NCBI GenBank assembly: GCA_948567375.1
Contig: OX419759.1
Span: 55,642,593-55,706,592 of the forward strand
Direction of reading: 5' to 3'
DNA from: Lunularia cruciata
Taxonomy: Eukaryota > Streptophyta > Marchantiopsida > Lunulariales > Lunulariaceae
DNA length: 64,000 nt
The position numbers were made by a program, and so were the translations under genes. Below, one piece after another: positions 6,038-31,002 of this stretch. Below the pieces are notes generated by a model. The model made no database searches and was not told the origin of the DNA. It saw only the letters and a list, made by a program, of their open reading frames with translations. Positions within the stretch are counted from its first letter, which is position 1. Every line of letters starts with the position of its first letter.

Positions 6038-6054
6038 TATTCCCCCGCAGCTAG

Positions 6055-7300: not shown

Positions 7301-7559
7301 AAGGTCTTGTCCACACCCATATGACTAACAATTGGTAAGTTATAGGCTTCTTGAAGGCACACAAGTCAAAGATCACCTTTGGCTAGAATATAGATTTGGT
7401 CTTCATGGAGTAGAAGGCCTTCCTTGTAGGAGAAGATATTGTACTCCTTGTTGTATGCTGCAAGATGACCTTATACCATCTGAAAGAAAGGATCTTGTTG
7501 TATAGCTATTTGAAACTCAATTTGGACTTTTGAGTCAATGGATACCATCAAAATTGCCA

Positions 7560-9104: not shown

Positions 9105-9230
9105 CTTGGGACTTCTCTTCCTTCAAAGCTTACTCTCTGGTTGCTTTCTTTACAAATTTCCCATCTTGGGGCTTCTATTCTTCCAAAGCTTGCTTTATGG
9201 CTGCTTTCCTTACAAACTTCTCATCTTGGG
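9012..9230 (-). repeat. Gy-A1 60-bp coding repeat between protease and RT (4 units, one partial)
   Basis: Four head-to-tail copies of a unit of about 60 bp. On the minus strand each encodes a variant of KSQDGKFVNKAAIEQALKED. One unit near 9069-9105 is shortened by about 23 bp. Homologous arrays occur at 40865-40975, 45270-45330, 49681-49920 and 56775-57076 with different unit numbers. Confidence 0.8.
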
Positions 9231-9289
9231 ACTGACTATCCTTAGGTGTCTTACTCAAAGGTGCCTGACAACCTAATCAAAAATTTCTA

Positions 9290-11340
9290 CCTTGGTATTG
9301 TACTTGAATTTGTCATCATGTCCAATCAATTGAACCTTATTAGATTCAAGCCAAGGTAGTCCTAGAATGAGATCATAGTGTAGAGATACCACTACAAACC
9401 TCATACACTCCAAATACTATTTCCCAATCTTGAAAGTAATAGGATGTGATGTATAGAATACAAAACCCTTTCTACCATTTGCCATCATCAATCTACTTCT
9501 AGTTACTGGCTTGATAGGAAGACCCTATTCCTTTGCTAATTGCATAGACATGCAATTCTTTGAATTTCCAAAATCAACCAAAATCCTATAACCACGATTA
9601 GATATTGCACCTTGCCAGTGAAGCAAACTTGCATAGGTCAAGCCTTCAATCCCATAGGAACTAATCAAGCTCCCAATAGGCGGCTCAAAACTCCTACTAG
9701 GATTTCTCATTTCTCCAATCATTTGGAATCATCTAGGCAACTTGTCAAGGTCACCCATTTTTGAGTGGACATTTAATGATGCGATGTCCTAATTGGTGAT
9801 AATAAAAAAAACCACCATTTTGTCATAATTTTTCTTTATCTATTATGCCAAGTGGTCTCTATTGAATGGCATCAATTTCCATTAGTGTAATAATCCAAGG
9901 ACAAGAGAACTCTTCAAAAGAGATACAAGAGAGAAAATACAGATTTCACACTCAATCCTCCGATACCCCAAACTAGCACCTTCTCTTTATTATATAGCCA
10001 AGGAGGATCTACTCCAAGGAAGCTCCACCATAGGATTATATACATGGATAGGTGACCTATCAACAAGCTCCACCCTTATATTACTTGCTTAGATGGGTAA
10101 CATGTTGGTCTTGGTCCCATCTGGTTGGTCAAACAGGCTTTGACTAGAGGGAATCTTTTAGGGAATCTTCTTATAAAAATCTCAAAATCACGTGGGTGAG
10201 GTATTGTTGGAAAGCTCTTGGTGAGACAAACCAGGGAGAGGGCAACCTTTTCTCAAGTTTGGGGGGGGGGGGTTAACACATTTTTGAGATCTAATTCATC
10301 CGTTAGGTCTTCCGAAATGGCCTTTGAAGTTTTCAAGCCTATTATGGCTTTTGCCCTATTAGTAGAAGTGCTCTTTTGGTGATACCTTTATCTGATCTAT
10401 ATTCTCCATTATGTGTAACATTCTTCCAGATTTCATTACCCCAAGTTTCACCTCTAGATCCTATGCCTAGTTATTGATTCTAAAGTTTTCAAGCATGTTT
10501 TGGTTTTTGGCCTATTAGTAGAAGTACTCTTTTGGTGATACCTCTAGTTTATCTACTTAGTTCATCATGTATAAAATTCTTCCAAATTTTACCAAACCAA
10601 ATTTCATCTCTAGATCATCTATTTAGCTTTGGTATCATAGTTGGTGTCGGCTCCTCCACTCGTGTGTAATGTATTGGTAGGTTCTATGGAGGTTAAGGGT
10701 GAGACCAAGTTGTTGCAACCAAGGAATCAAAACATTTGGCCAACCGCATGGCTTGCTCCAAGTGTTGTGGCTCTTGCATAGTTACCTCTAATTTGGTTCT
10801 TGACTTCAAGTCCCTCACAAATTGATCCAGAGCTTCAATATATATCTGGAATTTGCATGATGGTGTTCTAGTGTATGATGTAACTTCTTATAGAGCCAAT
10901 GTGTTTCAACTTTGCCAACCTATCCCATGTAGCTTGTGTGGCATTTATAGCTTGGAATTGACTAATTATTGCACTCTTGAATTCTACCCACTCAAGATTA
11001 GTGTAACAATTTGCTATTTAGCTCTCTCCATTTGGAATTGCCACCATAGCTTTGCTAGTCCATCCAATTAGCTAGAAGCCAAAATAATCTACTTTCGCTC
11101 ATTTTGAAGATTGGTAGCTTCAAAATATCATTCACAATCAAACACAAATTCTCCACTACACTTGAAAGATTCTTGCCTTCAAATACCTTATGTATAGGGA
11201 ATTAGATTCAATCTTCTCCTTCTCGAAGTGGTACCCTCTCCACGTGCTCTTGTCATTGATGATCTCGTTCATCCAACAATCAAGTAAAGTGTTTAATTTT
11301 TTTTGCATAGCAATGATAACTCCGGGTATTGCCACCATGG
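9290..11340 (-). pseudogene. gag: Gy-A1 gag and protease, split by a solo LTR
   Basis: The gag N terminus reads on the minus strand from 11338 (MVAIPGVIIAMQKK), followed by degraded Gag to 10640. The solo Gy-D LTR interrupts it at 9886-10639. The zinc-knuckle remnant HQLGHRIIKCPL lies near 9830-9780 with its first cysteines altered. The protease at 9722-9330 contains YRILVDFGNSKNCMS, where the family DSG is changed to DFG. The whole is non-functional. The matching Gy-A2 gag begins at 48318. Confidence 0.75.
9886..10639 (-). repeat. Solo Gy-D LTR (754 bp) inserted in Gy-A1 gag
   Basis: This is the reverse complement of the Gy-D LTR seen at 5095-5841, with clear similarity from start to end but many mismatches. 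There is no internal Gy-D sequence beside it, so it is a solo LTR left by LTR-LTR recombination. Flanks ATTAG (left) and GTTGG (right) are a possible diverged 5-bp target duplication, since uninterrupted Gy-A copies read CCATTGGTGTTGG here. A run of 12 G lies at 10261-10272. Confidence 0.82.
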
Positions 11341-11590
11341 TTGCTACTCTATTACGCCACCTCTAATCTATCTAATTTATTAACACATAGAAGCAACACA
11401 TCCATTATTCTCAATAAGTTACAACCAAAAGCACCAAGGGTTCCTCAAGTATGGTGATCATAGAAAATCTTGCTCAAAGTATGAGTTGATGAATTGTGTG
11501 AAATGATGCTTGGGTAGAACCTGAACACGAAAATCCCAATGGTTTGGCAAAAGTGGATTTGGTAGTCCATAAATTCCATCTATCCGATTC

Positions 11591-11604
11591 TTGCTTTGAT
11601 ACCA
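11591..11604 (-). other. Gy-A1 primer binding site (initiator tRNA-Met type)
   Basis: The minus strand reads TGGTATCAAAGCAA directly inside the 5' LTR. The standard plant initiator tRNA-Met site is TGGTATCAGAGC, so there is one mismatch. Other Gy-A copies carry TGGTATCAGAGC exactly. Confidence 0.85.
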
Positions 11605-12014
11605 TGTAAAGATTGAGACCAAGAGAAATAGAAGAATGGAAGTTCACATTGGGACACTTGAATAAGGGAAACTCCAAATGTCTAGCATCAACTTCGGCTT
11701 TGGTATTTATAGGGAGTATACAAGGCTCTTGAGAAGATTCTCAAGAAACTTCCTTCAACCACTTTCTTGGAGTGCAAGCCAAGTTAACCAAGAAGCTTCC
11801 TTCTAGAAGTCATTTATTTGGCATACAAGCTAAGCTAGCTGGAAACTTCTAGAAGCTTCTTTCTAGAAATTATCTACTTGGGGTGCAAGCTAAGCTAGCC
11901 GGGAAGCTTCCCAAAAAACTTCCTAGATACTATTGGAGTATTCTAGGCTAATTTGTCCTGATTACTACCTTGTTAGCCCGAATAAAGTTTATCGCTAAAC
12001 TCCATATTGTTACA
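11605..12014 (-). repeat. Gy-A1 5' LTR (410 bp)
   Basis: Bounded by TGTAAAGATTGAG (plus-strand low end) and CCATATTGTTACA (high end). On the minus strand it has a CCTATAAATACC TATA box. Upstream of that is a GAAgtTTCttGAG run, close to a three-unit heat shock element. It contains the short AAGCTT/TTCTAGAA modules seen in all Gy-A LTRs. Confidence 0.85.
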
Positions 12015-12467
12015 ACCATGCAACCTTTGTGTTGAAGGTGCTCTGGCAAGAGATCTCACCTTCAAAGAGCAACTATTACAAGCCATGCCAAAACATGCAA
12101 GTATTTTTTTCCAAATACCTCCTTTGAGATATCCACAACTTTTCCTTGCTCTTGCCCTAATGGATTTCAATCCCAAGCACCCTTTTTGAAGAACTCAAGT
12201 CCTTTTGTGGCTTCTGTGCCTCCTATTGCAGATTCTTGTATTCTTTTTGGGTGCAATTGAGTGACTACCTAGGTTAGGTTCACATTAGCAATTAGGATTT
12301 AGAACTTGTAGCCCAACCCTACAAGAGATATTTTAAAAATATGCAATCAAGGAGATATTATTGGAGTGTAGCCTCCCATTGATGGAATTACAATCACAAC
12401 CATGGTGATGATGGTCCTCCCAAGACCATGAGAACACAACCACTATCATAGTTGCAGGTACGGGATG
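12015..12467. other. Spacer between Gy-A1 and Gy-A3
   Basis: About 450 bp not recognisable as any of the four families. A short open stretch (12007-12189, plus) has no recognisable motif. It may be host sequence or an older unrecognised repeat. The last bases before 12468 (GGATG) match GGGTG at 43075-43079 with one difference and form the target duplication of Gy-A3. Confidence 0.5.
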
Positions 12468-12623
12468 TGTAAAAGACCAAGAAGAGAAATAGGAGAACGG
12501 AGATCAAGGTGAAAGATCACATTGGGACTCTTGAATAAGAGAAAACTCTAAATGCCTAACATGAATTTGGGCTTTGGTATATATAGGGAATATATAAGGC
12601 TCTTGAGAAGCTTTTCAAGAAGC
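12468..12623 (-). repeat. Gy-A3 3' LTR, low half (split by Gy-C)
   Basis: Starts TGTAAAAGACCAAGAAGAG, the conserved low end of minus-strand Gy-A LTRs, and stops at CAAGAAGC where Gy-C begins. The other half lies at 22999-23303. The bases AAGC occur on both sides of Gy-C as a 4-bp duplication. Confidence 0.88.
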
Positions 12624-13765
12624 TGTCACGCCATTTGTAGTTCCGCATCTAGCTGCTCAGACACTGGAGTTCCCGTGATAGTAGTTAGAGTTATTTCAGC
12701 AGTATCTCAGAGACTACTTTCCGACGGTCAGATTTGGTGTTCGGGGTACTATAACACCCATTTGTGCATGTGTGTGGTATTGTGATATTTAGCTTGGTAT
12801 TACAAGTACTTAAGAGATATTATTTATAGAGATAAAGGATGGTTCTATTTTAGTCATGGTTAGCTAAAGTTAGTCATAGCTAAGATAGAGTGGACCTTAC
12901 TTTAGAGGAAGTAGAAAAGATGAGCACCACTATTTTGGATTTTAGTGTGTTGACTTGGCATTATTCCTAGGTGTTTGGCTTTGAGGAAAGAGTTGAGAAC
13001 TCTTGGGCCCGCAAACCTTTTTCTTTTGGATTCTTCTTTATTCCAAGGATAGCCCATGTGAAGGAATCCTTGACTTAGTGGTTGGGTCAAGATAAGACCA
13101 CATGCTTAGGGGAATATGCCCATGTGAATGGATATTCCTTTCTACTTTTTGACTTTACTTGACTTTTAGTCTAGTAACTTGAGTTACTACGGTAATTAGT
13201 AACTTTGGTACGTAACTATTTCACAAGTATATAAACAAGGGGCGAGGAGGTACTCACCATCCTTTCATTTGCAACTATCTCTCTCTCATTGAGTTCTCTA
13301 GTGAGCAATGTCTTGAGTCTTGGAGTGTTAGCCTTGGAGGAGTATGATGGATTTGGGGTTCCTTGCCTTCTTAGTCCATGGTGCGCTACCATAATAGCCA
13401 TCAGAGGTTCATCCTGAGTGAGAGACATGCCGGCTCACAGTACTGACTTCATGGTGGGGCCCACCGTCACTTTGCACCGTTTGCACCGTCGAGTGTGCCG
13501 TCAGTGGGATCGTTAGGGTTTCAGTGCTAGCTCGAGTCCAGGGGGTATAGTTTCAAAGTGAGCTCCAGAGAGCTCACTTCTCTGATGTTGAGCCTTCGAG
13601 TTCTTGGCTATGGTGGACAGAGGCCGGCGAGCATCACCTGGATTCTCTATGCTTGAGTGGGTGTGGCTTGACTATAATCAATGCCCAGTTGCTGGCAGTT
13701 TATAGAGTGACAGATCAAGTACTAATCTGAGTTGAGTTGAGTAGAGAGTGTTAAGCAATCTGATT
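12624..13765 (+). repeat. Gy-C outer low terminus (arm b, about 452 bp plus solo LTR)
   Basis: Begins TGTCACGCCATTTGTAG. It is inverted relative to 13859-14347, with which it pairs along its length to form a large palindrome. By eye about 7-8% of positions differ. The homology stops near 13765, leaving a loop of about 93 bp (13766-13858). The solo Gy-B LTR at 12750-13439 interrupts this arm only, so it arrived after the palindrome formed. Confidence 0.85.
12750..13439 (+). repeat. Solo Gy-B LTR (690 bp) inside Gy-C
   Basis: Starts TATAACACCC (family start TGTAACACCC) and ends CGGCTCACA. It matches the LTRs of Gy-B-inner and Gy-B-outer along its length and keeps the 13-bp ACCACATGCTTAG-type segment missing from Gy-B-inner. 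GTAC at 12746-12749 is repeated at 13440-13443, a 4-bp target duplication. The inverted arm at 13859-14347 shows the uninterrupted site with one GTAC. Confidence 0.92.
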
Positions 13766-13848
13766 ACATCAGAGAAGTGAGGTCAGGGGGAAATTGGATT
13801 ACATCAAAGAAGTTTTCGTAGACTTGCAAATGACTTTCGCAAATGACA

Positions 13849-13876
13849 GTGTTAAGCAAATCAGATTGCTTAACAC
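13849..13876. repeat. Short perfect hairpin at the Gy-C palindrome centre
   Basis: GTGTTAAGCAA and TTGCTTAACAC form an 11-bp perfect inverted repeat around a 6-bp loop. It overlaps the point where the two arms of the large palindrome meet. Confidence 0.8.
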
Positions 13877-14456
13877 TCTCAACTCAACTCAACTCAGATC
13901 AGTACTTGATCTATCACTCTATAAATTGCCAACAACTGGGCACTGATTACAGTCAAGCCACACCCACTCAAGCATAGAGAATCCAAGTGACGCTCATCGG
14001 CCTCTGTCCACCATAGCCAGGAACTCGAAGCTCACTGAGCTTCGAGTTCACTGGCTATGGTGGCTTCGAGTTCACTGAGCTTCGAGCTTCGAGCTCAGAG
14101 AGCTCACTTCGAAACTATACCCCCTGGACTCGAGCTAGCACTGAAACCCTAACGGTCCTGCTGATGGCACACTCGATGGTGCAAATAGTGCAAAGTGACG
14201 GTGGGCCCCACCGTGAAGTCAGTACCCCAAACACCAAATCTGACCGTCGGAAAGTAGTCTCTGAGATACTGCTGAATTAACTCTAACTACTATCACTGGA
14301 ACTCTAGTGTCCGAGCAGCTAGATTCGGAACTACAAATGGCATGACAACTGTCATGCGTATATACATCGCTACACAACATTCATCGCTATGAACATCATA
14401 CACTATAGAAGCACAACTCACACATAAGTCATACATAGACTTTAAAGTGCCACAAT
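13859..14456 (-). repeat. Gy-C internal complementary region (b' plus a')
   Basis: Composed of b' (13859-14347, inverted copy of the low terminus) and a' (14350-14456, inverted copy of the high terminus 22892-22998), separated by AC at 14348-14349. The junction reads GCATGACA-AC-TGTCATGC. Thus the bases flanking AC are exactly the two outermost bases of the whole insertion. DIRS-family retroelements carry a comparable internal region used, in current models, to circularise the cDNA. That role here is inference. The minus strand reads AGGGGCGCAAT just before a', resembling a polypurine tract. Confidence 0.75.
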
Positions 14457-14623
14457 TGCGCCCCTAGCTGGCGGTTAGGTCCCTCTAACTCCAGATAGCC
14501 ATCTACTCTAAGTATATGGTGTCCCTTCTAATGGGCAAAGATCAGGAGGCCGGGTGCTATGGAGCCCCATCGTTAGTCGCCTGTCTGCAATCTATACCAT
14601 ATAAAGAATGAACTAGCTATAAG

Positions 14624-14848
14624 TCAAGTACATCTAGGACATAACCGCTGTCCCTGAGGAACCACCGTGAGGGGAGGCGTCATACATGCCATATGCCATC
14701 CTCTCGAACAGCTATCACACACTAACATAGTAGCAGCTCCACCAGAAGAGCCACATAACATACACCTCAAGCCTGCACATACAAGTGCCAAGCTTGGGTC
14801 CATAGTACCATCAATGTTTGGAAGGTGGCATGGCGCACAATTGTGCAC
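14624..14848 (-). pseudogene. Gy-C PHD finger at the Pol C terminus
   Basis: The 74-codon stretch ends in a complete C4HC3 zinc-binding pattern: C29, C32, C44, C47, H52, C55, C70, C73, with the aromatic Trp before His (GWH). This is the PHD-finger signature. PHD fingers read histone H3 tails, so by analogy with chromodomains of chromoviruses it could tether integrase to chromatin. An NCAPCHLPN segment precedes it. It follows the integrase C-terminal region after a frameshift near 14850 and ends at a stop just after the last Cys. Confidence 0.85.
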
Positions 14849-15910
14849 ATGATCCTTCCAAACAACACCATCACGTCCTTCAACACAAGGACTCTAGATG
14901 GCAAAACCTCACGCACTCTCAAGATAGTGTGGCATGTAGAAACATCAAGTGTTGTCGGTGCTGTCTGCTGTAGATATACATAGTCGCCTTGATGAAATTG
15001 ACGGATCAAGGGTCTATAACCTCCTCCTCAAATGGTAGTATAGCGTAAAGTATCTCTATGTTGAGCAATCGCCAAGTTCTCAAAGGCCATCGGCATCACT
15101 CTCCGAAAGATCTCTGCCCGCTGAGAACATGCGCTCATCCATACATCGGGGTCATCCAAGTCCAAAACTACAATAGCATCTTGACAAATGACTGCAGGTA
15201 AATCTGGATCTTGTCCATAGAGTAGAAAGTATGGAGAGAAGGATGCTAAGGAGGCTTGCTGGCTGAACCGATAGCCCATGGCCAACCAAGGTAACTGGAG
15301 ATCCCAATCTCCCAAGTGGCCTCTACGCAAACCATACTTTTGCAATCCTCTCTTCACCGTCTGAACCACTCTCTCTGCTAAACCATCTGCCTTAGGGTGA
15401 TCTCGAGATGTAGTACAATGATCAATCAAAGCCTTGTCACACAAGACCTAAAACTCCCAAGAACTTTGTACCCTGATTAGTCAAAACCTCAGCTAGTGTA
15501 CCAAAATGACTAAGAACGCAATCCAGGAATGAGTAAGCTGTCCCTTCACTAGACTTGTCAGGAAGTGCCACCAACTCAATCCACTTGGAGAAGTGCTCCA
15601 CCATCACCAAAACATACCGATGATGTCTCACAGTCAGCGGTAAAGGTCCGGCAAAGTCCAAACTCCAATGGTAACCCAATCCCATGATAGGTAATGGGTG
15701 TAATTGTGGCGTAGGAGCATTGAATGATGCTCTAACTTGGTCACAAACCACACATCTAGCAACAAACTGCTGTACCTTGGTCTGCATACCGCGCCACCAA
15801 TAATGACTCTGGAGTAAGCTATATGTATGCTTTACTCCAAAATGTCCTGGCTCCTCATGAGCATGACGGACCAACTGTGGTCTCTGTGATGGAAGTGGTA
15901 CTACTTGCAC
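14767..15910 (-). pseudogene. Gy-C integrase, second catalytic Asp changed to Asn
   Basis: The HHCC domain is clear near 15860-15740 (HAHEEPGHFGVKH, then CVVC). The core has LDFAGP with the first Asp, then VLTNQGTKF, where the usual VLTDQGTEF Asp is Asn, then after a frameshift near 15440 HPKADGLAERVVQT with the Glu. The C-terminal part (about 15009-14850) reads QFHQGDYVYLQQTAPTT and a RVREVLPS segment. It integrates cDNA in the living family. This copy is inactive by a frameshift, a stop near 15030 and the Asp change. Confidence 0.85.
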
Positions 15911-15922
15911 TCTACTATCCTC

Positions 15923-16828
15923 CTATACACGCAAAAGGTGTCTACCCTCCAATCTGAACCGTCTGGCTCGCTGAAGAACACGGTCTCTCTCCTTGGCCCC
16001 AATTGTGCCACCCACAACACCAGTGCAAAGATAGTCCATCACTAAGACATCATCATGAATGTCTCGCTGAACTGTACCAATATCCTCACTCTCTGGATTT
16101 ATGGGCTCAATAACTCCTCCTGTATGCGCTGAGAGAGATACCACCAAAGCCTTTGCAAATATACACAAAAAGGCCGATGCATGCCAACCTGGAACCATCT
16201 CCTCATCTGTCTCACCATGCCAACTTGCTCCGGTCTGATCCTGCTGGCTAGGACATGGGTTTCTACTCAACCCATCTGCATCATGGTTCACCACTCCAAG
16301 TCTGTGAACCACCATGAAATCATACTCCTGTAAAATCAGAGCCCATCGTGCAAGCTTCCCTGAAAGCTTGTCGGACTCCATCAACCACTTCAGCGGCTGA
16401 TGATCAGTGATGAGAGTGAAGGGGTTACCAAATAGGTAACATCGGAAATGTGCTACTGCCCAAACTGCTGCCAAGCACTCTCCCTCATATGAACTATACT
16501 TCACCTCCGCTGAATTGTTGGAGCGACTAGCATAGGCCACCACAAACTCCTTCTCCTCATCATCATGCTGGGTGAGCACCGCTCCAAGCCCCAACATACT
16601 CCAATCAGTGTGAACCTGAAATGGTCGTCCCCTAATTGGTCTCCTCAAAATAGGAGCAGATATCAACCTCTCCTTGAGCTCTACAAAAGCTCTCTCCTGC
16701 TCATCTCCCAAACACCACTCTTGTGTAAGCTTGGTCAGCTTTATCAAGGCCTTTGCAATGGCACTAAATCCTCTAACATAGCGGCAATAGAAGTTTGCCA
16801 ACCCAAGGAATGCTCGCACTCTACTCAC
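15923..16828 (-). pseudogene. Gy-C RNase H
   Basis: A 301-codon open stretch. It begins with the tether (VRAFLGLANFYCRYVRGFS), then RNase H: VHTDWSMLGLGAVL with Asp, SSYEGECLAAVWA with Glu, ITDHQPLKWL with Asp, and HDADGLSRNP with the final acid. All expected residues are visible. A TAG separates it from RT upstream (near 16839) and another TAG separates it from integrase (near 15920). Confidence 0.88.
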
Positions 16829-17690
16829 ATCCGTAGGCTAAGGAATATGTGCAATAGCCTCCACCTTGGTCTGCTGAACACCAAGTCCTCCGGGGTAGAT
16901 AGTGTGACCCAAATACTCAACCTGCTCGTGGAAGAACCTACACTTCCCATGATGTTATTTGAGTCCATGAGATCTCAACCTCTCAAACACCTCCAACAAC
17001 TGTCGCTCATGCTCCTCCACAGTAATGCTTTAAACCAAAATGTCATCAAAATAGCACCAAGCAAAATCCAATCTAGCTAGGATCCTATCCATGACCCTCT
17101 GGAACTCAGCAGGAGCGTTCTTTAACCCAAATAGTAAGAACCTCCACTGATATAACACGTCCTTACCGTGAGGATCAATAGCCCAAAATGTTGTCTTGGA
17201 CTTATCCTCCTCTCTGATCGGCAACTGATGATATCCCGCTCGAAGATCCAAAGTACTGAAGACCTTTGCATGCCCAATCGCATCAAAAATCTCCTCCGGT
17301 GTAGGCATGGCATACCGATCAGCCCTGGTCTGTTGGTTGATAGGACGGTAATCTCCACACATCCGCCTATCTGTATAGTTGCCATGCGTATCCTTCTTGG
17401 CTGGCATCACTGTCGCTGATGCATACTCTCCATGTGAAATCTCCACCAAACCAACCTCAAAAAGGTCACTACTCCGACTCTGAATCAATGTCCTCTCCAT
17501 CTCACTATATTGATAAGGACGTCTGAAAACTGGTGTGTCGCTAGTCAGCTCAATCCGTATACCAGGTCCCTTCAGAGCACCCAAATCCTTCATACTGAAG
17601 GAAAAACAACTCGTGTGACTCCTCAAGAACCTCCAAACCCTCCGTCTTTCCTCTCCAATAAGCTTGGGTCCAAGATCTGGCTCCCAAGTA
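16829..17690 (-). pseudogene. Gy-C reverse transcriptase
   Basis: The open stretch 17626-17030 carries the RT motifs MPAKKDTHGNYTDRRMCGDY, STLDLRAGYHQLPI, FLLFGLKNAPAEFQRVMD and catalytic YFDDILV, then a TAA at about 17028 where YS is expected. The thumb continues to 16840 (HHGKCRFF, VEYLGHTIYPGG) across further stops. Upstream the frame extends to about 17690 (EERRRVWRFL), joining the linker after the methyltransferase. The YFDD box and overall layout are Gypsy type. Confidence 0.88.
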
Positions 17691-18059
17691 TCCTCTGTAA
17701 CTGTAGTAGGAGTGGAAGACGTACTGACTGATTGCTACATCAGGCCCTTGGGAGCAATAGTATCATGCTCCCGACCACTAGAGGTCCCAACCTCTGTGCA
17801 AAAAATCCCTCCACTCTAGCTGCAAGCTCCACATGTCCTCTGGCTGCATCCCATGTGGACCAAGGGTGTAATCCAAGTAGCCCACGCTCACCTGGATGGA
17901 CTCCAAGTAGACCACTCTCCCTAGTAGCTACTGGATTGTCCCAAGAATACCATGTCCATTTGGTCCATCGCCCCCAGCATGTGCTTGAATCGTCTCGATA
18001 GGCACAGGGCTCACAAGTGTCCGAGTGGTGATGCCTATCAAACGCATCCTATGCTGCTC

Positions 18060-19030
18060 TGCCAAGCCAAGGCTCACAATCCAGGTCAAACAATTCAGGT
18101 CCATAGCCTATCCTAACACCTGACGCCTGGATGCCTCTGACACTACTGGAACAGCGGTAATACCGGTGCAAAAACCCATCGCCCGCTCTCTCTCATCAGC
18201 ATTGGGCTCCACCAACTGCTGTAACTGTGAGTCCTAAACAAGTCCAGGTCCTCCCTCTTGAAAAGCATGAGAGCCTAGGAAACTCATGAGTGTGGGAAAT
18301 GCAGCTGTAGGCTGTCCAACTAGGTTCACCACTGCCATAGGTGACCTATCAGCCACTACCACTATTTGAGACTAACGCCCAACATCCAAGATATCATCAA
18401 CAAGAATGTGGTCCAGTTGCTAAATCCCATCATAAGCACACTGTAGAACCTCTCTGGGTAAGAGATTCATCCACCAAAGACGAAGACGATGAGCCCGTGA
18501 TCTCACTCTGGCTGCATCTAACAATACAGTAGGTCCTATCCAAGAATGGAACTGATGTGTACTCGCCACCACTCTAGTGCGAGAATCACCCATCAAAGGA
18601 ACGTTCTCCAAAAGGTAAGTTGGAGAAATGGACTGATGAACCTGGAGATGTTGTAGTATCCGTAACATCTCCCAAAACACACCAGAACGAGGATCCTAAA
18701 GACCCAAACCGCGGCCCGCACGTGTATGTCCCTGACATGGCCATCCAGAAATCACCAAGTGAATAGGCCCATGTCTCTCTAGGTCATGCGCCCCCCCCCC
18801 AGTAAGGAAATGTCTCCTGGTAGGGCCTTTTGGTAACCTTTGACTGCTGACATTGGTAATAACTCCGGATACTGATAGGCCAAGTGTGCCACATGATGTA
18901 GAGAGACTTGCCTAGCAGTCTCATCTCTCTCTACATACAAGTACCTCTGTACTCGGATACCCGCCTGTAACACCGCAGCTAGTCCGGTGTTGATCCCACC
19001 AAACAACTCCAATAGGCTATCCCGTCTACT
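18060..19030 (-). pseudogene. Gy-C C5 cytosine DNA methyltransferase domain within Pol
   Basis: Located between protease and RT. Motif I reads LLELFGGINTGLAAVLQAG (near 19012-18955), motif II YVERDETAR, and motif IV GWPCQGHTRAGRGLGL, with the catalytic Cys codon at 18735-18737 intact. DPRSGVFWEMLRIL follows, then motif VI LLENVP (near 18600), a motif VIII-like RVRSRAHRLRLWW, and a motif IX/X-like ERERAMGF and LG-stop-AMDLN (near 18190 and 18110). Damage: a one-base deletion near 19005, a G10 run frameshift at 18791-18800, and about five TAG stops. It would methylate cytosine in DNA. The subclass is unresolved; the DPRS and RLRLWW segments lean toward the DNMT3/DRM side. No targeting domain is seen. 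Confidence 0.88.
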
Positions 19031-19248
19031 GGATATTGCCAAGCAATGAGTGTGGTATCCAGAGGTGTCAAAGCAATCGCCTCTGGAGGCTCATCCTCAC
19101 ACTCATCTCCTGATGGTACGAAGGCTCCACTCCAAGCCTACTGCACCAACTGATCTGCATGCTGCTGCAATGCCTCCTTTGAACTCCATAATGGAACATC
19201 CAAGGTGGATGGAACAATCCTTCTCGTACTCCAAAGCCGAGTGATCTC

Positions 19249-20391
19249 CTATGGTACTGGAGTATCCTTTCCATGGGCGTTCCCCTCCAACAAGTCACCA
19301 GGCCAAGTAACTGCACCACTGAAAGCTAAAACTGATGCTGCCATGGTCCCGGACGGTAGTGAGCCAAGACTGCCACTACTAAAGCGTACTAGTAGGCAAC
19401 ATATCCGTCCCTCACCAGACTGCCAACCAGGTCTATAAGAGGTTGTCTCCTCCCAACAGTCAATGCTGAAACCCATGGGGTATAACACTGCTCTCCCAAC
19501 TAGCACATCATATGACTCAACTATCGTCGCAATAGCCTGAGCTCTCACCACCGAGCTATCAGTCGGATGACCAGGCTGAACCTGGACAACAAGCTCCTCA
19601 CGTGTAATGTACTATGTCGAACCACCACCTAGAGATGTCTGGATCTGAAATGGACACCTCTCCACATCGGTCTTCCGTAACTCCAGACCGACAACTGCAG
19701 CCTTCCCCAACATAAGGGGCTGCGCACTAGAGTCTAACAAGACTCTCTGTGGTGTATAGACTTTCCTTGAAGGTCCCACCAAACAAAAATTCCCCCTCTG
19801 GTTATCCATCAAGACAACACCAGGTGTAAACCGCGCTCTCTCAAAGGCTGGTCTAGCTGGCAACTCCTCCAATCTAGCCGCTGCTGCTTGCCATAAACCA
19901 TTGGTCGCTGAACGGATCCCATGCTCCTCAACCAAGTCAACTCCACTACCAACCACCTCTGCTCTAGTAGTAGGAACTGCACCATCCCTACTCTCACACA
20001 ACGTGGCAGCCAACCGGAATACTGGGGCTGGGTCAACTCCCAATGTAAACATGTCACTGGCTGAAAACAAAGGATGCCGCATAATCAGCTGAGCCGCCCC
20101 CAACATCATGCTAGACTCAGTCTGTGTAGTAGCAGGTGGTTGACTAGCAGGTAATCCATCATGTACTCCATCACCACCTACCATACCTGCACTGGGACGT
20201 CTAGGAACCATGGATGTCGTCTGTGATGCCTCAGATAGCATGAAAGACTGGGGAAGTCTGACCTGTCTCCCAACCTCTCCTCTCTCCGGGTCCAACTCCA
20301 CTGATGCTCTTCTAGGCTCTGGAGCACGTACTGCACTCCTAGTCACTGCTGCAGATGCATCCACCTGTGCTGCTCCGCACATGAAGTCCAA
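19249..20391 (-). pseudogene. Gy-C aspartic protease with long N-terminal linker
   Basis: The open stretch 20391-19612 holds a Pro/Ala/Ser-rich linker of about 170 codons, then RVLLDSSAQPLMLGKAAV, the retropepsin active site with DSS in place of the usual DSG. After a TAG near 19611 the C-terminal half continues (YDVLVGRAVLYPMGFSIDCW, near 19510-19440), matching the end of Gypsy proteases. A TAG near 19247 then leads to a spacer (including EDEPPEAIAL) and the methyltransferase, all apparently in one original polyprotein frame. Confidence 0.8.
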
Positions 20392-20449
20392 AGCATCTCT
20401 ATCACCAGCATATGAGGTGGAAGCCTCAGCACCCGAATCTGATCTCCTC

Positions 20450-22020
20450 TAAGCAATAGCCATACTAGCCAATCTCTGCTCCAACTGCTCAATCCGAGTA
20501 GCCATAGCTGTGTCAAAAGTAAGGGCAGGTACTGCACCCCTACTAGGTTTAGATCCTCTACCACCACCTCTACCATCTCATCCTCCATGAACTGGAGCTC
20601 GTCTACTACCTGCCATAGCAACCCTACCACTCCGTAACTTCGGGTGTAGGTCAAAACACCGGTCACTAGTGTGACCAAATCTGTGGCAGTGCTCACATTG
20701 CCTCTGTGTTGGCTGTGATGCACCAAAGGTATCAGGTCGGATGCCCTGGGTACACTCTCTCCTATGGTGAGGTCCACCACAAGTCCAACAAGCAACACCA
20801 CCACTCACTGGCTGCTGCTGACTCAAAAATGAGGGTAAGGGTCTAACTCCACTAGGCCCTCCACTCGCTCCATAGGATCTGGGCTGTCCACCCTGTCCTC
20901 GAAAACCAACTGGGTGTGGTGCACTCTATTGCACTGTAGAAGAAGTCACAACCGTGGATGAGGTCTCCCTACCGAATCCAGATGTCACCACTCTCTCCTC
21001 CACCATATTGAGCTCAATACACTCAGCCAAACAAAAGACTACTGCCAAAGTGGGCGAAGTAGCCTGCAACAACGTAGCATCACAAACTCTACGTCGCAAC
21101 TCCCTATCCAATATCCCATACCAAAACTGGACTGCCTGGGCCTCAGTAACCTCCTGAGTGAAACTGATCAGCCGCCTCATGCAAGTGTATACCTCACGTA
21201 GGCTCTCTCTAGCCTTCCGCTGGAACTCTTGCAAGCTCCTCAGCTTGTCAGTCCGCACTCCCTGGTAGTTCTGCCTCAAAAATAGAAAGAACTCCACCAT
21301 GGGGTTAAACCCCGGTACCACACCACCTCTTGCAGCGGTACCTCCACTCGTAGTAGCACTATCTCCAGCTAGTGCACCTCCACTAGCTCCACCTACACTA
21401 CTTGAGCTAGAACTTGTGGGTACAGCTGATCTACTCTTGGCCACCGAGCCTGAAGTGATGGAGACATAGTGTGAAAACCAATATTGTCTCCATAACTCAA
21501 TCTCCTCCAAATGAGCTCTCCTGAACTCATGGTAGTCATCCATCGGCGGACCCTCCAAGTGCTGAAAAAACCCCTTCCATGCCATGAAGGGTGTGAACAA
21601 AGTCGGGTTCCGCATCTGCTACAGATCACACCAACTGTCTAACTCCTGGATGAAGTCATCCAACTCAATGGTACCCATTGTACTAGAGTAACGCCTAGGG
21701 CCTTTGGAGGCCCCATAAATCTCGTCCATGTCCCACAACAATGGTGCGGACACACCAAGTGCACTCTCAACTGAATCAGCTCCTGTGTCAAACTCCAACT
21801 CAGAGTCAATCTCCTCCCTCATTGGGACCTGAGATACAGGCTGATATTGAGCACCACTCTGAGTAAACCCACTGCGTACTGTAGGGCTAACTCCTCTGGA
21901 ATCTCCAAAGAACTCCGTCGTGACAAAGCAACCACAACAACAAACCCGAACCACCAATTGCAACCGCAAGTCACAACCGCAAGTCACAACCGCAAGTGCC
22001 CCACCAAGTGCCAACACCAA
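20450..22020 (-). pseudogene. gag: Gy-C gag with two zinc knuckles
   Basis: Starts at about 22020. The first 133 codons are acidic in their C-terminal half and end at a TAG near 21617. The next 229 codons (21615-20926) contain the Gag core (FTPFMAWKGFFQHLEGPP to FWYGILDRELRRRV). After a second TAG, zinc knuckles CWTCGGPHHRREC (spacing atypical) and CEHCHRFGHTSDRC (perfect CX2CX4HX4C) lie near 20790-20660. A TGA at about 20579 sits in an Arg/Gly-rich tail, as expected from CGA decay. A short coiled segment IEQLEQRLASMA follows. It would bind genomic RNA and build the particle. Confidence 0.82.
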
Positions 22021-22891
22021 CTAAACACCACCCACTAATGTAACTCTAACCAAGATAACTACACTAGGGGAAAGGGCAACTTGTAACCTGCCATCATAAC
22101 ACGCACTCTCACGGTCTACAGGTCATCACTTCCTGCCTCACCGGAGAGATACAAAGGTAGTCTGACTGGTCATCACTCCAGCCTCACCACCGAGAGCACA
22201 CCAGAGCACCAACGCTCAAAAGTCAGGGCACCTCACATATACGTGGTGCACAAATAGGAAGCAAAGAATGGAAGGGATCCAATCACAAGAAATCTAAACG
22301 AAAACCCTCCATCTCATAACACAACACGGGACTGACTCTGCCACCATTTGGCATTTAACATAAGACCAGTTCGTATCTAAGTCCTAGGCTACCAAGATCA
22401 CCAAGAATGGGATCAAACTGCCTCTCCTAGCCAAAGCTACATGTGTATAGATAACAGTGGCACAGTCACTATGACAACAAGTGAGGGTGGACCAGTTGGC
22501 TAGGGCACCAAGGAACAAGAGATCTAGGGGTCAAACCTTGTTGCGCACAATCTAGTAGGAAAGGCAGATTTTGCCAACCAATGACCAAGATCTACTCTAA
22601 ACTAGCTAGCCTCACGCCAGCAAGTTGGCTTGCTGGCCCTTCTAGGCCTTCGTAGCCTCTCATAGCCCACAGCCCTATGCCTCGAAGCCTCTAAACGCCA
22701 AAATTCAGCCGAAAGGCCTTTCTTGTTGCCACTTTGAACCTCCTCCAAAATTGGCAAAACTTCTCCAAATCTGCAAAAGTCCTCCAAACTAGCAAAACTC
22801 CTCCAATTCTGGCCAAAATCTGACATAAATCTGAACCTCCTCCAAAATTGGCAAAACTTCTCCAAATCTGCGAAAGTCCTTTGCAAGTGTC
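22021..22891 (-). other. Gy-C 5' leader
   Basis: Non-coding on the minus strand. A candidate primer site is TGGTGGCAGAGTCAG (about 22345-22331), which resembles the initiator tRNA-Met site TGGTATCAGAGC with three differences, so it is uncertain. Near 22734-22880 there are two copies, about 70 bp apart, of a segment containing CTCCAAAATTGGCAAAAC. I find no direct-repeat LTR here that matches the 3' end. Confidence 0.5.
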
Positions 22892-22998
22892 ATTGTGGCA
22901 CTTTAGAGTCTATGTATGACTTATGTGTGAGTTGTGCTTCTATAGTGTATGATGTTGAAAGCGATGTATGTTGTATAGCAATGTATATATGCACGACA
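22892..22998 (+). repeat. Gy-C outer high terminus (arm a, 107 bp)
   Basis: Ends GTATATATGCACGACA. It is an inverted copy of 14350-14456 with roughly 10 differences in 107 bp. Immediately to the right AAGCTTCCC resumes the Gy-A3 LTR. Confidence 0.88.
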
Positions 22999-23374
22999 AA
23001 GCTTCCCAAAAGCCACCTCCTTGGATTGCAAGCCAAGCTAACCAAGAAGTTTTCTTTTAGAAATCACTTACTTGTCATGCAAGCTAAACTAGTCAAGAAG
23101 CTTCCCAAGAAACTTCCTTCTAGGAACCACCTATTTGGCATGCAAGCTAAGCTAGTTGGGAAACCTCCAAGAAGCTTTCTCCTAGAAGGTACCAAGTAGC
23201 TTCTTAGATACTTCTAGAATATTCTTATAATTCTTGGCTTATTTGGCCAATTTGCTACTTCATTAGTCTTGACAAGCTTGTCTTTAAATTCCATATTGTT
23301 ACATATTCTATTACCACTAGTTGGTGATGTCCTTGTCACCGTGGAAGCTTCAAACCTTGGATGGTTGTTTGTGC
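22999..23374 (-). repeat. Gy-A3 3' LTR high half and 3' internal end
   Basis: 22999-23303 completes the LTR begun at 12468 and ends CCATATTGTTACA. 23304-23374 is the internal 3' end (ACTAGTTGGTGATG and the tail of the chromodomain region), which is cut at TTTGTGC by Gy-B-outer and resumes at 39002. Confidence 0.88.
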
Positions 23375-24066
23375 TGTGAGCCGACCTGTCTCTCACTCAG
23401 GATGAACCTCTGATGGCTATTATGGTAGCGCACCATGGACTAAGAAGACAAGGAACCCCAACTCCATCATACTCCTCCAAGGCTAACACTCCAAGACTCA
23501 AGACATTACTCACTAGAGAACTCAATGAGAGAGAGATAGTTGCAAATGAAAAGATGATGAGTACCTCCTCACCTCTTGTTTATATACTTGTGAAATAGTT
23601 ACGTACCAAAGATACTAATTACCGTAGTAACTCAAGTTACTAGACTAAAAGTCAAGAAAAGTCAAAAAGTAGAAAGGAATATCCATTCACATGGGCATAT
23701 TCCCCTAAGCATATGGTCTTATCTTGACCCAACCACTAAGTCAAGGATTCCTTCACATGGGGTATCCTTGGACTAAAGAAGAATCCAAAACAAAAAGGCT
23801 TACGGGCCCAAGAGTTCTCAACTCTTTCCTCAAAGCCAAACACCTAGGAATAATACCAAGTCAATACACTAAAATCCAAAATAATGGTGTTCATCTTTTC
23901 TACTTCCTCTAAAGTAAGGTCCCCTCTATCTTAGCTATGACTAACTTTAGCTAACCATGACTAATATAGAACCATCCTTTATCTCTATATAAATAATATC
24001 TCTTAAGTACTTGTAATACCAAGCTAAATATCACAATACCACACACATGCACAAATGGGTGTTACA
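23375..24066 (-). repeat. Gy-B-outer 3' LTR (692 bp)
   Basis: Plus-strand text runs from TGTGAGCCGACCTG to GGGTGTTACA, the reverse of the family LTR. The adjacent plus text TTTACCCTCGGACTAAG (24067-24083) is the reverse of the G-rich purine tract. Confidence 0.92.
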
Positions 24067-24270
24067 TTTACCCTCGGACTAAGTTTTCACTTTGTCCTCA
24101 AAGTGAAGGTCTCTCTACCTTCTATGGTACATCTTCAACTTATCATGGTTAATCCTATCAAAGTGTCTTCCTCCCAACTCCTTGAGATCATAGGTGTAAT
24201 TGCCCCACACCTTCTCCGATATGAAAGGTCCAAAGTACTTAGGTAAAAACTTCTTTTGCACTCTCTTGAA

Positions 24271-25226
24271 TCAAATGGAATCAAACAACATTACCCAATC
24301 ACCTTCTTTGAAAGTCTCCACCTTCTTCTTGCCTTGACTCTTGTCATAGCTCTCCTTTTGTTTCCTTTGGGCTTGCTCCACTCGAACCAGAGCAATTGCT
24401 CTTGCCTCTTCCAACTCCATGAGTTGATCCTTCCTTGACTTCTCTACATCACCTCCTTGTGCTTTCTTCAATCTCCTTTGAATGCTTTGGAAGGTAGGAA
24501 GATCAAAGTGAAGAGGTAAGGTAGACTCAATACCATACACCAATTGAAATGGAGAATATCCGGTGGAAGTCTTCATGGTTGTCCTATACTCCCACAAAAC
24601 TGCATGAATCCTCTTGTCCCAATGATGTTTAGCCCCCTCCATTTCTGCATCTTTGGCCAACATCATGCACAAGGTCTCATTGGTTCTCTCTGCCAAGCCA
24701 TTGGAATTTGGCTTATAGGATGTAGTTACTCTATGTGTGATAGAGAAATGTTGTAGCATGGCTGTAGTAATGCTTCCTGTAAACTCTCCTCCTCTATTAG
24801 AAACCAACTCCAAAGGGCATCCAAACCTAATGATAATGCGTTCATAAAGAAATCTACCCACTTCATCTTCATTCTTGTCCCTCAATGGTCTAGCCTCAAC
24901 CCACTTTGTAAGGTAATCAATAACTACCACAATGTACCGTTGTTCCTTGGGGTTCTATTGAGAGGACCTACAAAATCAATTCCCCTCTTCTCAAAAGGTC
25001 CTAGCAATGGAATTGATCTAAGTGGTGGAGTGGATGTAGACTTTCTAGCAAAAGCTTGACAAACATGACAAGTTTTGCAATAATCAAGACAATCCTTGAA
25101 AATCCCTCTCCAATGGTAACTTGCATCTAGAATCTTGAAAGCAGTCACCTTTCCTGCAAAGTGTCCTCCACATACTAAACCTTCATGAAACTCCTTTATG
25201 AGTAGAATAGACTCTTCCTTACCCAC
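24271..25226 (-). pseudogene. Gy-B-outer integrase
   Basis: Closely matches the intact Gy-B-inner integrase. The zinc domain lies in 25226-24924 (FHEGLVCGGHFAGK, YCKTCHVCQ), with GIDFVGP carrying the first Asp. A frame break near 24925 follows, then 24930-24271 has LVSNRGGEFTG, where the second catalytic Asp (SDRGGEF in the inner copy) is Asn, and NGLAERTNETL with Glu. The C-terminal GPF region is truncated by a further frameshift near 24270. Confidence 0.88.
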
Positions 25227-25232
25227 TGCTCT

Positions 25233-26915
25233 TCAAAGTAGACCATCTGCTCCTTGGTGAAAAAGAATATCCTCCACCATTGTGTAAAATCTAGATCTTG
25301 CTGCAAGGGCCTTCCTCTCCCTAGCATGCATCCCTTCTGGATAGTTACCTCTTGTCACAAAATCCACAATCTCCTTGTACTCCATTGGAACCTCTTGAGT
25401 GACTGAGATTGTCATGAGCTCCTCATCAGGGAACCAATCATCCACTGGCTCATCTCCATCATGATCATAGGCTCTAGATAACAAATCAGCGTTTGCATGT
25501 TTCTTTCCTGGCCTATCCTCAATGGTGTTTTCATACTCAGACAAGAATATCATCCACCTTGCTAGTCTCTCTTCAACATTAGGCTTGTTGAAGATGTACT
25601 TCAAAGCCTTGTGATCCACGACAATGGTGGCTTTCCCTCCAATCAAGTAGTGTCTAAACTTCTTGAGACCAAAGATCATTGCCAACCCTTCTCTCTCCGT
25701 GATAGAGTAGTTCTTCTCTGCTGAAACCATCTGCCTACTAGCATAAGCTATTGGATGATCATGCCCATCTTGGTCTAATTGACTAAGAGTGCATCCTATA
25801 GCTACATTAGAAGCATCAGTGTAGAGGATGAAAGGCTTACTCCAATCAGGTTTAGCAAGAATTGGAGCTACAACAAGGGATTGCTTGAGCTCCTCAAAAG
25901 CTTTGAGAACCTCCTTGTCCTCCAAAATCACCATGTAATCTACACCCTTCTTCATGTAGATGGTCAATGCATAAGCCTTGTTGGAAAATGAGAAGATGAA
26001 CCTCCTATAGTATCCAACCATCCCCAAGAATTGGCATAACTTTGTCAAGCTTGAAGGGAATGGGATGTTTGAGATTTTCCTCACCTTCTCAGGATCAACT
26101 ACTATTCCATCCTTGGAGATGATGTGCCCCAAAAGTAGATCTTCTTCACATCCAAAAATGCACTTCTTTGGGTTGAGTGATGCATTTACCTCATCCAAGC
26201 GTTGCAAGACTTTGATTAGGTGCTCAAAGTGCTCCTCTTTGCTCCCATAGACACAAAAGTCATCAATGAAATCTCTCACAAATTTCCCAATGAAAGGTTC
26301 AAATACCTTGTTCATGAACCGTTGGAATGTGGCTAGAGCATTGCAAAGCCCAAAAGGCATAACCTTGAAAGCATAAGTTCCCCAAGGTGTGGTGAATGTG
26401 GTGAGTTGTTGATGCTCTGGTGCAATCTTGATTTGGTTATATCCACTATAACCATCTCCAAAATTGTACCTCTCATGACCTGCAACTTCCTCCAAGATCT
26501 CATCAATGAATGCCAATGGGTAGTAGTCCTTCTTGGTAACAGCATTGAGCTTCTTGTAATCCACACATACCCAAAGCTTGCCATTCTTTTTCTTCACAAT
26601 GACAGTTGGAGACACCCATTCTGAATTCTCTACCTCAAAGATAAATCCAGCCTCCTTGAGCTTATCAATCTCCTCCTTCACAACCAAAGATATTGGTGGG
26701 CTAATGCGACGTTGCTTTTGGCGGAGTGGTCTTGCATGTAGCTCTACCTCTATCTTGTGCTCCTCCAAGGTGACTTCCTTCAAATCCTTGTAACTAAAAG
26801 CAAACACATGGATGAACTTGCGGAAAATCTCCTCAAATCTCACCTTCTCCTCCTTGGTAACATTTGGACCATACTTGAGGGTAGATAACCTTCTCTCTAC
26901 CTCCTCAAGTGTCAA
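25233..26915 (-). pseudogene. Gy-B-outer reverse transcriptase and RNase H
   Basis: A 560-codon open stretch nearly identical to the corresponding part of Gy-B-inner. RT motifs include VCVDYKKLN, VMPFGLCNALATFQRF and FIDDFCVYGS. RNase H has LYTDASNVAIG, REGLAMIFG, VDHKALKYI (Val for the usual Thr) and ANADLLSR. The frame is lost at both ends by stops near 26940 and 25230. Confidence 0.9.
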
Positions 26916-26935
26916 TGGTGATTTATCTGGGTCCT

Positions 26936-27993
26936 TCTAAACCTCTGACTTAGGTGAAAAATCCATAGCACACAAAGGATACACATCTGAATTAGATTCA
27001 GATTCATCCTCCTCCATGGAAGTCTCTTCTTCCATGCTTGTGTCCACACCTGAAGCTCATGCTTCAAAATCTGATTCCCAATAATCAGAAGATGGTGTAT
27101 CTGAATGTGAAGTGTTGGTGGTGTTAGTCATAGGAATTGTGACTCTATGGTTTGATGGCCCAATCCTCAAGTACCTTTTGTGCCATCGATCAGTTGTGCG
27201 TGCTGCTCTCAACCATGGGCTCCCAAGAAGTAAGTTATAGCTTGAATCCTTCAAGACTTGGAAAGTCATGAGATTTTGAACTCCCATAACTGAAACTATC
27301 ACTTTATCCATCACCCCTACTGGTCTAACTTGTTGCTTGTTTGCCATGCTCACCACAAATGTTGAAGGTCTTGAGGGTATCATACCCAACTTCTTCATCA
27401 ACCTTTGACATGGCATTTACTATTGATCCTCCATCAACCAATGCATCCTTGATGTTGTGACCATTCCCTCTCACATCAATCTTGGAGGCATATTCACAAG
27501 CCTCCTATGGTGCTGGCTTGGCATCCACCACCCCCATTGATACTAGAACTTTTGCCTTCTTCTTCCTCTTGCTCCTTGTAGAACTCAGACCACCTCTAAG
27601 CTCCTTTCTCAAGGTAGGGTTCAAAGCAATCAATTGGCCCACTTTGATGTTAGCCTTGTGACTACCAACATCTTCCAACACATTGTAGTTCCATTGTTGC
27701 TTTGAAATCAAGAAATCCTCCATCCCCAACTTCTTCCTTGGAGTCTTTGTTGTTGATGGTGTTGAGGTGCAAGTGCTCCTAGTAGACATAGGAGTATCCT
27801 TGCTTGGAGTAAATCCTTGAGAAGAGTGAACATCCTCTGCAAAATAAGCTCTCTTCTTCACTTGTGCCAAAAGCTCCAAATTAAGACTCTTGGAGTTTGA
27901 GCACTCTCCTTTCTCATACTTGCTCTTCATCACATCTATGGATGCTATCTCCTTACCTTTGTCTGGATTAGGACCCACTTGGGTTTCACTACC
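26936..27993 (-). pseudogene. Gy-B-outer protease and linker
   Basis: 27978-27505 is the linker (KLGMEDFLISKQQWN), and 27416-27057 follows the active site (MKKLGMIPSRPSTFVV to LLLGSPWLRAA). The active-site DGG is readable near 27435 in another frame, so a small indel lies close to it. Compare the intact protease of Gy-B-inner, residues about 495-590. Confidence 0.85.
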
Positions 27994-28937: not shown

Positions 28938-29159
28938 CTTAACCTCTCACTATCTTTCTTTTCTCTCAATTTTTCATTTTCTCTTTTCTTTTCTCTCACT
29001 CTATAACTAATAGAGTATATACATGACTAACACCATTTGAGAGTAATCCACCCTAGGGAACACAAAAGGCTCATGTTGCTTCAAGATTTCTATAGCTACA
29101 TCAAATCCTAGAGAGCATATTAATCGAACCCTCATGGATAGTTTATCCATAAGTTGAAA

Positions 29160-30980: not shown

Positions 30981-30984
30981 TTTT

Positions 30985-31002
30985 TGGTTCCGTTGCCGGG
31001 AC
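30985..31002 (+). other. Gy-B-inner primer binding site, tRNA-Glu type
   Basis: TGGTTCCGTTGCCGGGAC lies 4 bp inside the LTR. From memory of plant tRNA-Glu (3' end CCCGGCAACGGAA plus CCA), this is complementary over all 18 bases. The outer copy has TGGTTCCGTTGTCGGAAC at 38305-38288. Confidence 0.75.

Follow-up and report, generated by a model that had tools for sequence, protein, structure and literature searches.

A Gypsy-type retroelement with a DNMT3-type cytosine methyltransferase and an integrase PHD finger in Lunularia cruciata

Introduction

Retroelements that carry a DNMT3 domain have been described as KnitGypsy-Dnmt3 in the charophyte Klebsormidium and as SymbioDIRS-Dnmt3 in Symbiodinium (de Mendoza et al., 2018; PMC5890265), and the presence of DNMT3 in retroelements of streptophytes and dinoflagellates is restated in PMC12344493. 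DNA methylation is shown in the 2018 report for SymbioDIRS-Dnmt3 and not for KnitGypsy-Dnmt3, the domain of which gave no methylation in yeast, where human DNMT3B likewise failed (PMC5890265). Cytosine methylation is one of the main plant weapons against transposons, and a thriving family of transposons that bears a methylase reverses the arms-race story.

Here we describe an element of this type in a 64,000-nucleotide stretch (64 kb, the window) of the Lunularia cruciata genome. A first-pass annotation had proposed that the window holds a Gypsy-type element with a C5-cytosine methyltransferase between protease and reverse transcriptase (RT), and this is supported by the analysis below. It also pointed, correctly, to earlier reports of methyltransferases in retroelements (PMC5890265), and guessed that the element methylates its own cDNA or insertion sites, which is similar to the self-methylation of cDNA proposed in that paper.

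The Lunularia element has the order RT, RNase H and DDE integrase of the KnitGypsy kind (Pfam matches in the window and in a related element, L007, and 20 of 20 sampled copies). It may be assigned to the KnitGypsy-Dnmt3 kind, within which its PHD finger and the second domain order of its relatives might make a separate variant. Shared with KnitGypsy-Dnmt3 are the Gypsy type, a DNMT3-type domain in the Pol region, DIRS-like repeats, purifying selection and the absence of introns (PMC5890265). The Lunularia element is set apart, by description only, by its two open reading frames (ORFs) and by its nearest named relatives, which are in liverworts and mosses. Its copy number is probably higher, as judged from candidate places only. 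It also has a PHD finger at the integrase end, whereas the word PHD is absent from the main text of PMC5890265.

Other described systems are more distinct. SymbioDIRS-Dnmt3 likewise has a DNMT3-type domain in a retroelement polyprotein and DIRS-type repeats (PMC5890265), but there a tyrosine recombinase is used, as in the DIRS order, while the Lunularia element has a DDE integrase (PF00665 with an H2C2 domain) and duplicates 4 bp at its target. DIRS elements with Dam-type adenine methylases (PMC5890265) also resemble it in repeat layout and in carrying a methylase, but the fold of that methylase is unrelated and the recombinase differs. Animal DNMT3A and DNMT3B have the same catalytic fold and motif order, but the Lunularia enzyme is fused to retroelement proteins and aligns with PCQ in motif IV where the animal enzymes have PCN. 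The PWWP and ADD domains of animal DNMT3 (PMC12344493) were not seen in the Lunularia element.

Three features are added to the 2018 report: the PHD finger, another domain order, which is found in a methylase clade of its own, and ends that look circle-derived. In the open-licence PMC literature we found no report of bryophyte members, of a PHD finger on a Gypsy integrase or of the second domain order. The known range, one charophyte and dinoflagellates in 2018, is extended to liverworts, mosses and, for the second order, a Volvox protein. Any gain that a transposon draws from DNA methylation thus becomes testable in tractable plants (e.g., Marchantia).

Results and Discussion

The methyltransferase domain

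We identified a C5-cytosine methyltransferase of the DNMT3 type on the minus strand of the window, at approximately 19033-18042 (18042..19033). Its translation contains the motifs ELFGGINTG, YVERD, GWPCQGHTRAG, DPRS, LLENVP, RVRSRAHRLRLWW, ERERAMGF and AMDLN in the canonical order, on the strand and at the position first reported. The PF00145 profile matches the largest piece significantly (E 1.1e-7; 32.1 bits, Pfam cut-off 22), and the absence of such a match had been named beforehand as a refuting outcome. Searched alone, neither the first nor the last piece has a Pfam match. The RT, RNase H and integrase are located downstream on the same strand, and gag, zinc-knuckle motifs and protease upstream. 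The single apparent polyprotein frame that it described did not hold up: the methyltransferase changes frame near 18,790 and carries several in-frame stops, and the neighbouring domains are spread over several frames.

The class of the enzyme is DNMT3, as judged from sequence, profile and predicted fold, each of which places DNMT3A first in the PDB. A search with the read-through domain returned DNMT3A chains (E 2.1e-10) and then DNMT3B, with weaker matches to HaeIII (0.0041), DRM2 (0.062) and HhaI (0.19). A profile of 23 relatives matched DNMT3A with E 5.6e-23, followed by 4onj (4.8e-13; an entry titled only 'DNA methyltransferase', which we take to be a plant DRM), DRM2 (1.8e-9), HaeIII (2.3e-7) and HhaI (5.9e-7). 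The predicted structure of one relative (mean pLDDT 76) has DNMT3A as its best match (TM 0.81 by target length). In the alignment, the order agrees with that of DNMT3A all the way from motif I through the C-terminal motifs, and there is no DRM-type rearrangement. Homology is far beyond chance because a search with the domain found 176 proteins, the best of which is 71% identical over 98% of the query.

Structure of the window copy

The element spans 12624-22998 and is flanked on both sides by the target-site duplication AAGC (12620..12623 and 22999..23002). It is inserted in one copy of a degenerate repeat family, and an uninterrupted copy of that family at 42630-43072 represents the empty site. 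Most of the coding region can be recognized on the minus strand. Gag (20926..21984) was located by its similarity to ORF1 of another copy, L023 (92% identity over 21984-19018); identity to L007 ORF1 over gag and protease is 26%. Two zinc-knuckle-like motifs (20578..20826) were read from the translation and have no Pfam match above the cut-off. An aspartic protease with its C-terminal part (19324..19770) was identified from the translation and by alignment of L007 ORF1 (26-660) to 21315-19324. In the window copy the active-site Asp-Ser-Gly of this protease has become Asp-Ser-Ser, and the piece has no Pfam match of its own.

Beyond the methyltransferase are a Gypsy-type RT (16846..17563; PF00078, E 1.2e-15), which is 61% identical to L007 over the block 17692-15449, and RNase H (16322..16708; PF17917, E 7.5e-37, and PF17919, E 1e-31). 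The integrase, with an H2C2 zinc finger and a DDE core (14878..15892; PF17921, E 1.6e-17, and PF00665, E 4e-8), is broken here and is 61-66% identical to that of L007. At its C-terminal end is a PHD finger (14630..14764; PF00628, E 2.8e-10, above the cut-off), with 58% identity to the end of L007 ORF2. The PHD finger had not been mentioned in the first-pass annotation.

Chromoviruses are Gypsy elements in which the integrase has a chromodomain (PMC3350952). The Lunularia element likewise has a domain of the histone-reading type at the integrase C-terminus, but a PHD finger replaces the chromodomain of chromoviruses. No chromodomain family was detected in L007 ORF2 at E values up to 0.1.

The ends of the window copy are complex. 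The left terminal repeat, B1, is on the plus strand. Its outer part (12624..12749) starts with TGTCACG, a start shared with B1 of nine genomic copies, and matches 14221-14350 in inverted orientation. The inner part (13444..13765) was recognized from inverted matches (13440-13565 with 14100-14225, and 13594-13765 with 13859-14030). Between the two is a solo LTR of another Gypsy element (12750..13443; 95-96% identical to the LTRs at 23375-24066 and 38310-39001), a later insertion that is not part of the element. Internal copies of two repeats follow on the minus strand: B2 (13859..14348), found from repeat matches within the window, and A1 (14351..14456), separated by two bases (14349..14350) that are GC in copy L028 and in L007. 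The right terminal repeat, A2 (22892..22998, plus strand), ends with CACGACA, as established from repeat matches and by comparison of ends. A1 and A2 are inverted with respect to each other and 92.5% identical, compared to 0 to 3 mismatches in 107 bases in nine other copies, and the window copy is therefore older. It is a broken, internally inverted member of a family that has many other, nearly identical copies in the genome.

Other copies in the genome

The genome (G000; 566 Mb in 74 contigs) was searched with the PF00145 profile, which gave 2161 candidates; 123 matches were scored, many of them in long frames. A search with the 3' end of the element gave 3137 candidate places. Scores were obtained for 40 of these: 100% for the window and 96-97% for the 39 others. 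Both 2161 and 3137 are candidates from a loose first pass rather than verified copy numbers. The methyltransferase of the window copy is 89-91% identical to that in the ORF of L023. Both L023 and the relative L007 have two long ORFs, one for gag, protease and methyltransferase and one for RT, RNase H, integrase and PHD finger.

In a sample of 20 copies selected for long frames, protease, methyltransferase, RT, RNase H, integrase and PHD finger occur in that order in all 20, and gag was detected in 18. To lessen the selection bias, we also took the 12 places ranked directly below the window by the 3' end alone. The methyltransferase is present in ten of these, and for nine of the ten the start of RT is also inside the retrieved stretch. 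In the exceptions, another repeat is joined just past the expected end of the domain (L060) or the place lies within another Gypsy element (L061). No clean protease-RT junction without the methyltransferase was found among these 12 copies. Copies that lack the domain at this position had been named beforehand as the sign of a one-off insertion; with the domain in 20 of 20 and 10 of 12 copies, it is part of the Gypsy coding region in most copies and is not a one-off insertion.

The copies also refute the idea that a fragment of a host methyltransferase lies by chance, or through a chimeric artefact, beside an unrelated retroelement. The domain adjoins RT in copies on eight different contigs. 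It also continues directly into RT in a Riccia protein and follows the protease in Sphagnum and Marchantia proteins. We found nothing in support of an artefact, to which we give practically no credence.

Selection and mutation

In this sample, which is biased toward long frames, purifying selection seems to act on the methylase. Pooled over the 20 long-frame copies (19 with a near-full methyltransferase), pN/pS is 0.40 for the methyltransferase, compared to 0.37 for protease, 0.28 for RT, 0.38 for RNase H, 0.46 for integrase and 0.36 for the PHD finger. Neutral simulation using the mutation spectrum of the noncoding end of the family gave an expectation of 0.89 for the methyltransferase, and 0 of 60 runs were at or below 0.40. 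The observed values were also reached in 0 of 60 runs for protease, RT and the PHD finger, in two for RNase H and in one for integrase. The simulation used a star tree of 14 sequences and the copies were selected for long frames, so we take the direction of the difference and not its size. Ranges were wider in a smaller, earlier run.

These values bear on whether the domain is a mere passenger, captured by a chimeric template switch and persisting without function. The window copy is broken, and 9 of the 19 near-full methyltransferase stretches have an in-frame stop whereas the shorter protease and PHD stretches have none (20 of 20 stop-free for each), as a passenger might show. However, the other long domains are no better preserved: stop-free stretches number 10 of 19 for the methyltransferase, 10 of 19 for RT, 11 of 19 for RNase H and 6 of 18 for integrase. 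A passenger is also hard to reconcile with a pN/pS lower than in every neutral simulation and with a domain that is still open in relatives about 50% apart, as in L007. We thus consider a passenger very improbable.

The noncoding ends record a second pattern. Transitions per site, pooled over pairs of 11 copies (among L020-L039), are 0.069 in CG, 0.057 in CHG and 0.012 in CHH contexts. This is as expected of DNA that is methylated in CG and CHG in the host and fits silencing by the host. The CHG signal suggests that integrated copies are modified by enzymes of the host rather than by the element's own enzyme. The window copy has a CpG observed/expected ratio of 0.40, and four other copies have 0.44-0.47, compared to 0.12 for the ORF of the neighbouring Gypsy element and 0.19 for the window from 40 to 64 kb. 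The element is thus less depleted in CpG than these two stretches, and its own enzyme has left no trace of additional CG mutation.

It has been suggested that such an element silences its own integrated copies, so that damage to the host is limited and the lineage is favoured (PMC5890265). Methylation of copies in CG and CHG fits this idea, as does a methyltransferase kept under selection like the other domains. Against it are the CHG share, which points to host enzymes, and the apparently wide spread of the family (3137 3'-end candidates, with all 40 that were scored at 96% or above), which is unlike the prediction from strong restraint. On these grounds self-restraint is an unlikely role for the enzyme.

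Relatives in other organisms

Among the best 120 of the 176 proteins that match the methyltransferase domain are plant proteins from Calypogeia, Sphagnum, Marchantia and Riccia, and one labelled as from a bacterial MAG. Relatives are also present in metagenomes. The most complete relative that we used for comparison, L007, is a 9285-base contig that was binned with a cyanobacterium; it has identical ends of 127 bases and long open frames. Its methylase is 47-50% identical to that of the window copy, and the region from RT to integrase 61-66%. A search with L007 ORF1 (7994 best candidates scored) found 35 longer proteins, among them Marchantia Mp_4g09160 and a weakly matching Closterium protein (25% of the query covered). 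The corresponding search with the L007 integrase-PHD region (7994 best candidates scored) found 462 proteins. Haematococcus and Volvox are represented among the best 120, the Haematococcus protein without a methyltransferase in the same protein. No Klebsormidium nitens sequence is among the named matches listed in the three homologue searches.

L007, P0025 and P0246 have the labels Synechococcales, Obscuribacterales and Spirochaetia, probably due to contamination of bacterial MAGs. A bacterial or phage origin of the domain was considered and rejected. Six viral-contig loci and four Streptomyces loci align with no more than a portion of the query (27-53% identity), and the seven of these ten that were placed in a tree fall outside, where long branches meet. 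L007 was likewise rejected as a prokaryotic source, as the sole strong locus with a prokaryote label is this retroelement contig. One relative of the RT-integrase-PHD ORF, P0160, is from a transcriptome assembly (a eukprot TRINITY contig), and some family member thus seems to be transcribed.

Two domain orders

We use class I for proteins with the methyltransferase before RT, as in Lunularia, and class II for the order RNase H, methyltransferase, integrase, PHD finger. Among the best 120 of the 462 integrase-PHD proteins, 46 have a methyltransferase in the same protein. It is located between RNase H and integrase in 21, before integrase with no RT in view in 22 (including the Volvox protein) and before RT in 3.

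In a tree of methyltransferase domains, 24 class I and 24 class II sequences are on opposite sides of one branch with support of 100; two further sequences belong to neither group, and this and the other trees are quick trees. In the RT tree, 13 class II sequences form one group (96) but class I sequences do not, and two of the seven class I sequences are nearer to class II, at a fork with support of 80. The integrase tree has a single group (100) of seven class I sequences and ten that lack a methyltransferase in the same ORF, and class I is scattered within this group. When host exons and bacterial enzymes are included, both classes cluster with the DNMT3-like exons of the host and apart from the bacterial enzymes (93). 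Within that cluster the tree does not separate host, class I and class II, which makes one capture followed by a move indistinguishable from two captures. Two loci in the Lunularia genome, L012 (G000:C7:31989837) and L015, have exons with the motif GFPCQDLS, and look like the host's own DNMT3 gene.

The classes also differ in the catalytic motif. In class I, the residues are Pro-Cys in 25 of 31 proteins and Glu-Cys in one, five were unrecognised by a simple pattern, and the EN motif is present in 31 of 31 (10 of 41 proteins without a near-complete domain were left out). In class II (P0150-P0274), the residue before the catalytic Cys, counted by eye, is Glu in 21 of 36 proteins, Pro in 9 and unclear in 6; a stricter pattern gave 13 Glu-Cys, 9 Pro-Cys and 14 unclear (11 of 47 proteins without a near-complete domain were left out). 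Because Glu replaces Pro in many class II relatives, their activity is uncertain.

Ends and integration route

The copies start with TG, end with CA and lie between 4-bp target duplications, and their split direct repeats are DIRS-like. Matching 4-bp duplications and TGTCACG...CACGACA ends are present in all nine copies for which both ends were retrieved. The direct repeats A1-B2-A2 were identified at the 3' end of 18 of the 20 long-frame copies (the exceptions are L029 and L034), and B1 upstream in nine of the ten copies with upstream DNA retrieved (none was found in L036). The layout in nine copies is B1-coding-A1-GC-B2-A2, where A has 107 bases and B about 448 bases, and B2 meets A2 without a spare base in 9 of 9. 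The junction GACAGCTGTC, which is palindromic, is also present in L007, at 7051. A G-rich tract immediately before A in L028, L025 and L007 looks like a polypurine tract. No tRNA primer site could be named from the sequence after B1, and self-comparison of the window copy revealed no conventional LTRs.

The layout suggests integration by way of a circular form, an uncommon route for a DDE integrase. The LTR formed by reverse transcription would be A + GC + B, and the integrated form would arise if integrase cut a two-LTR circle within one of its LTRs, at the palindrome GACA-GC-TGTC.

On the plus strand, the window copy consists of B1, then the inverse of coding-A1-B2, then A2, and its target duplications still match. 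The inverted core looks like the product of autointegration before the final integration. We considered the palindromic left end as DIRS-1-type inverted repeats and rejected this, as the split repeats are direct in other copies and the window copy has undergone an inversion. Inverted end-repeat matches were also seen in copies L034 and L026.

The inverted core bears on a role in which methylation, or mere binding, shields the cDNA or RNA from nucleases, deaminases or autointegration, with no meaning for chromatin. An inverted internal segment is what autointegration would leave, and the position of the domain in the polyprotein beside protease and RT would suit such a role, as would the adenine methylases of DIRS elements with a similar repeat layout (PMC5890265). 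However, EN in 31 of 31 and Pro-Cys in 25 of 31 class I proteins argue for catalysis over binding alone. Protection of the intermediate is a rather unlikely role for the enzyme.

Proposed function

The reading that we prefer, to which we assign a probability of about 0.45, is that the enzyme acts on the cDNA or circle of its own element and methylates it ahead of integration, that the putative PHD tether directs integration, and that the ends arise by the circle-opening route. The methylase would be packaged with RT and could act on the double-stranded cDNA or circle before integration. A new copy would then arrive already marked like the silent repeats of the host. The PHD finger, at the place of the chromovirus chromodomain, may tether the integration complex to nucleosomes with a given state of histone H3. 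Together, methylase and PHD finger would seed copies in silent, methylated chromatin, where little harm is done.

A wider reading is possible, but we regard it as doubtful. Under it, the elements would constitute an old green-lineage Gypsy superfamily in which DNMT3 as writer is coupled to PHD as reader, with two stable orders (protease-methyltransferase-RT and RNase H-methyltransferase-integrase) that lie on two sides of the methylase tree, the second being one RT clade. Members would integrate from a two-LTR circle at an internal palindrome and would act as a portable kit for chromatin silencing, in perhaps thousands of copies in the genome of a land plant. The Glu-Cys of class II would hint at a changed chemistry or substrate.

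Surroundings of the element

Another Gypsy element is present in the window at 30302-38103 (plus strand). It has a single open gag-pol ORF of 1608 aa and LTRs that are 99.4% identical, and lies within an older copy of itself that has the opposite orientation (23375-39001). The element at 30302-38103 gave no methylase match, and its intactness implies that the enzyme is not needed for success here. The regions 1-12600 and 39000-64000 contain several copies of the degenerate repeat family, which includes Gypsy-like fragments of RT as well as tandem repeats spaced by about 60 bp.
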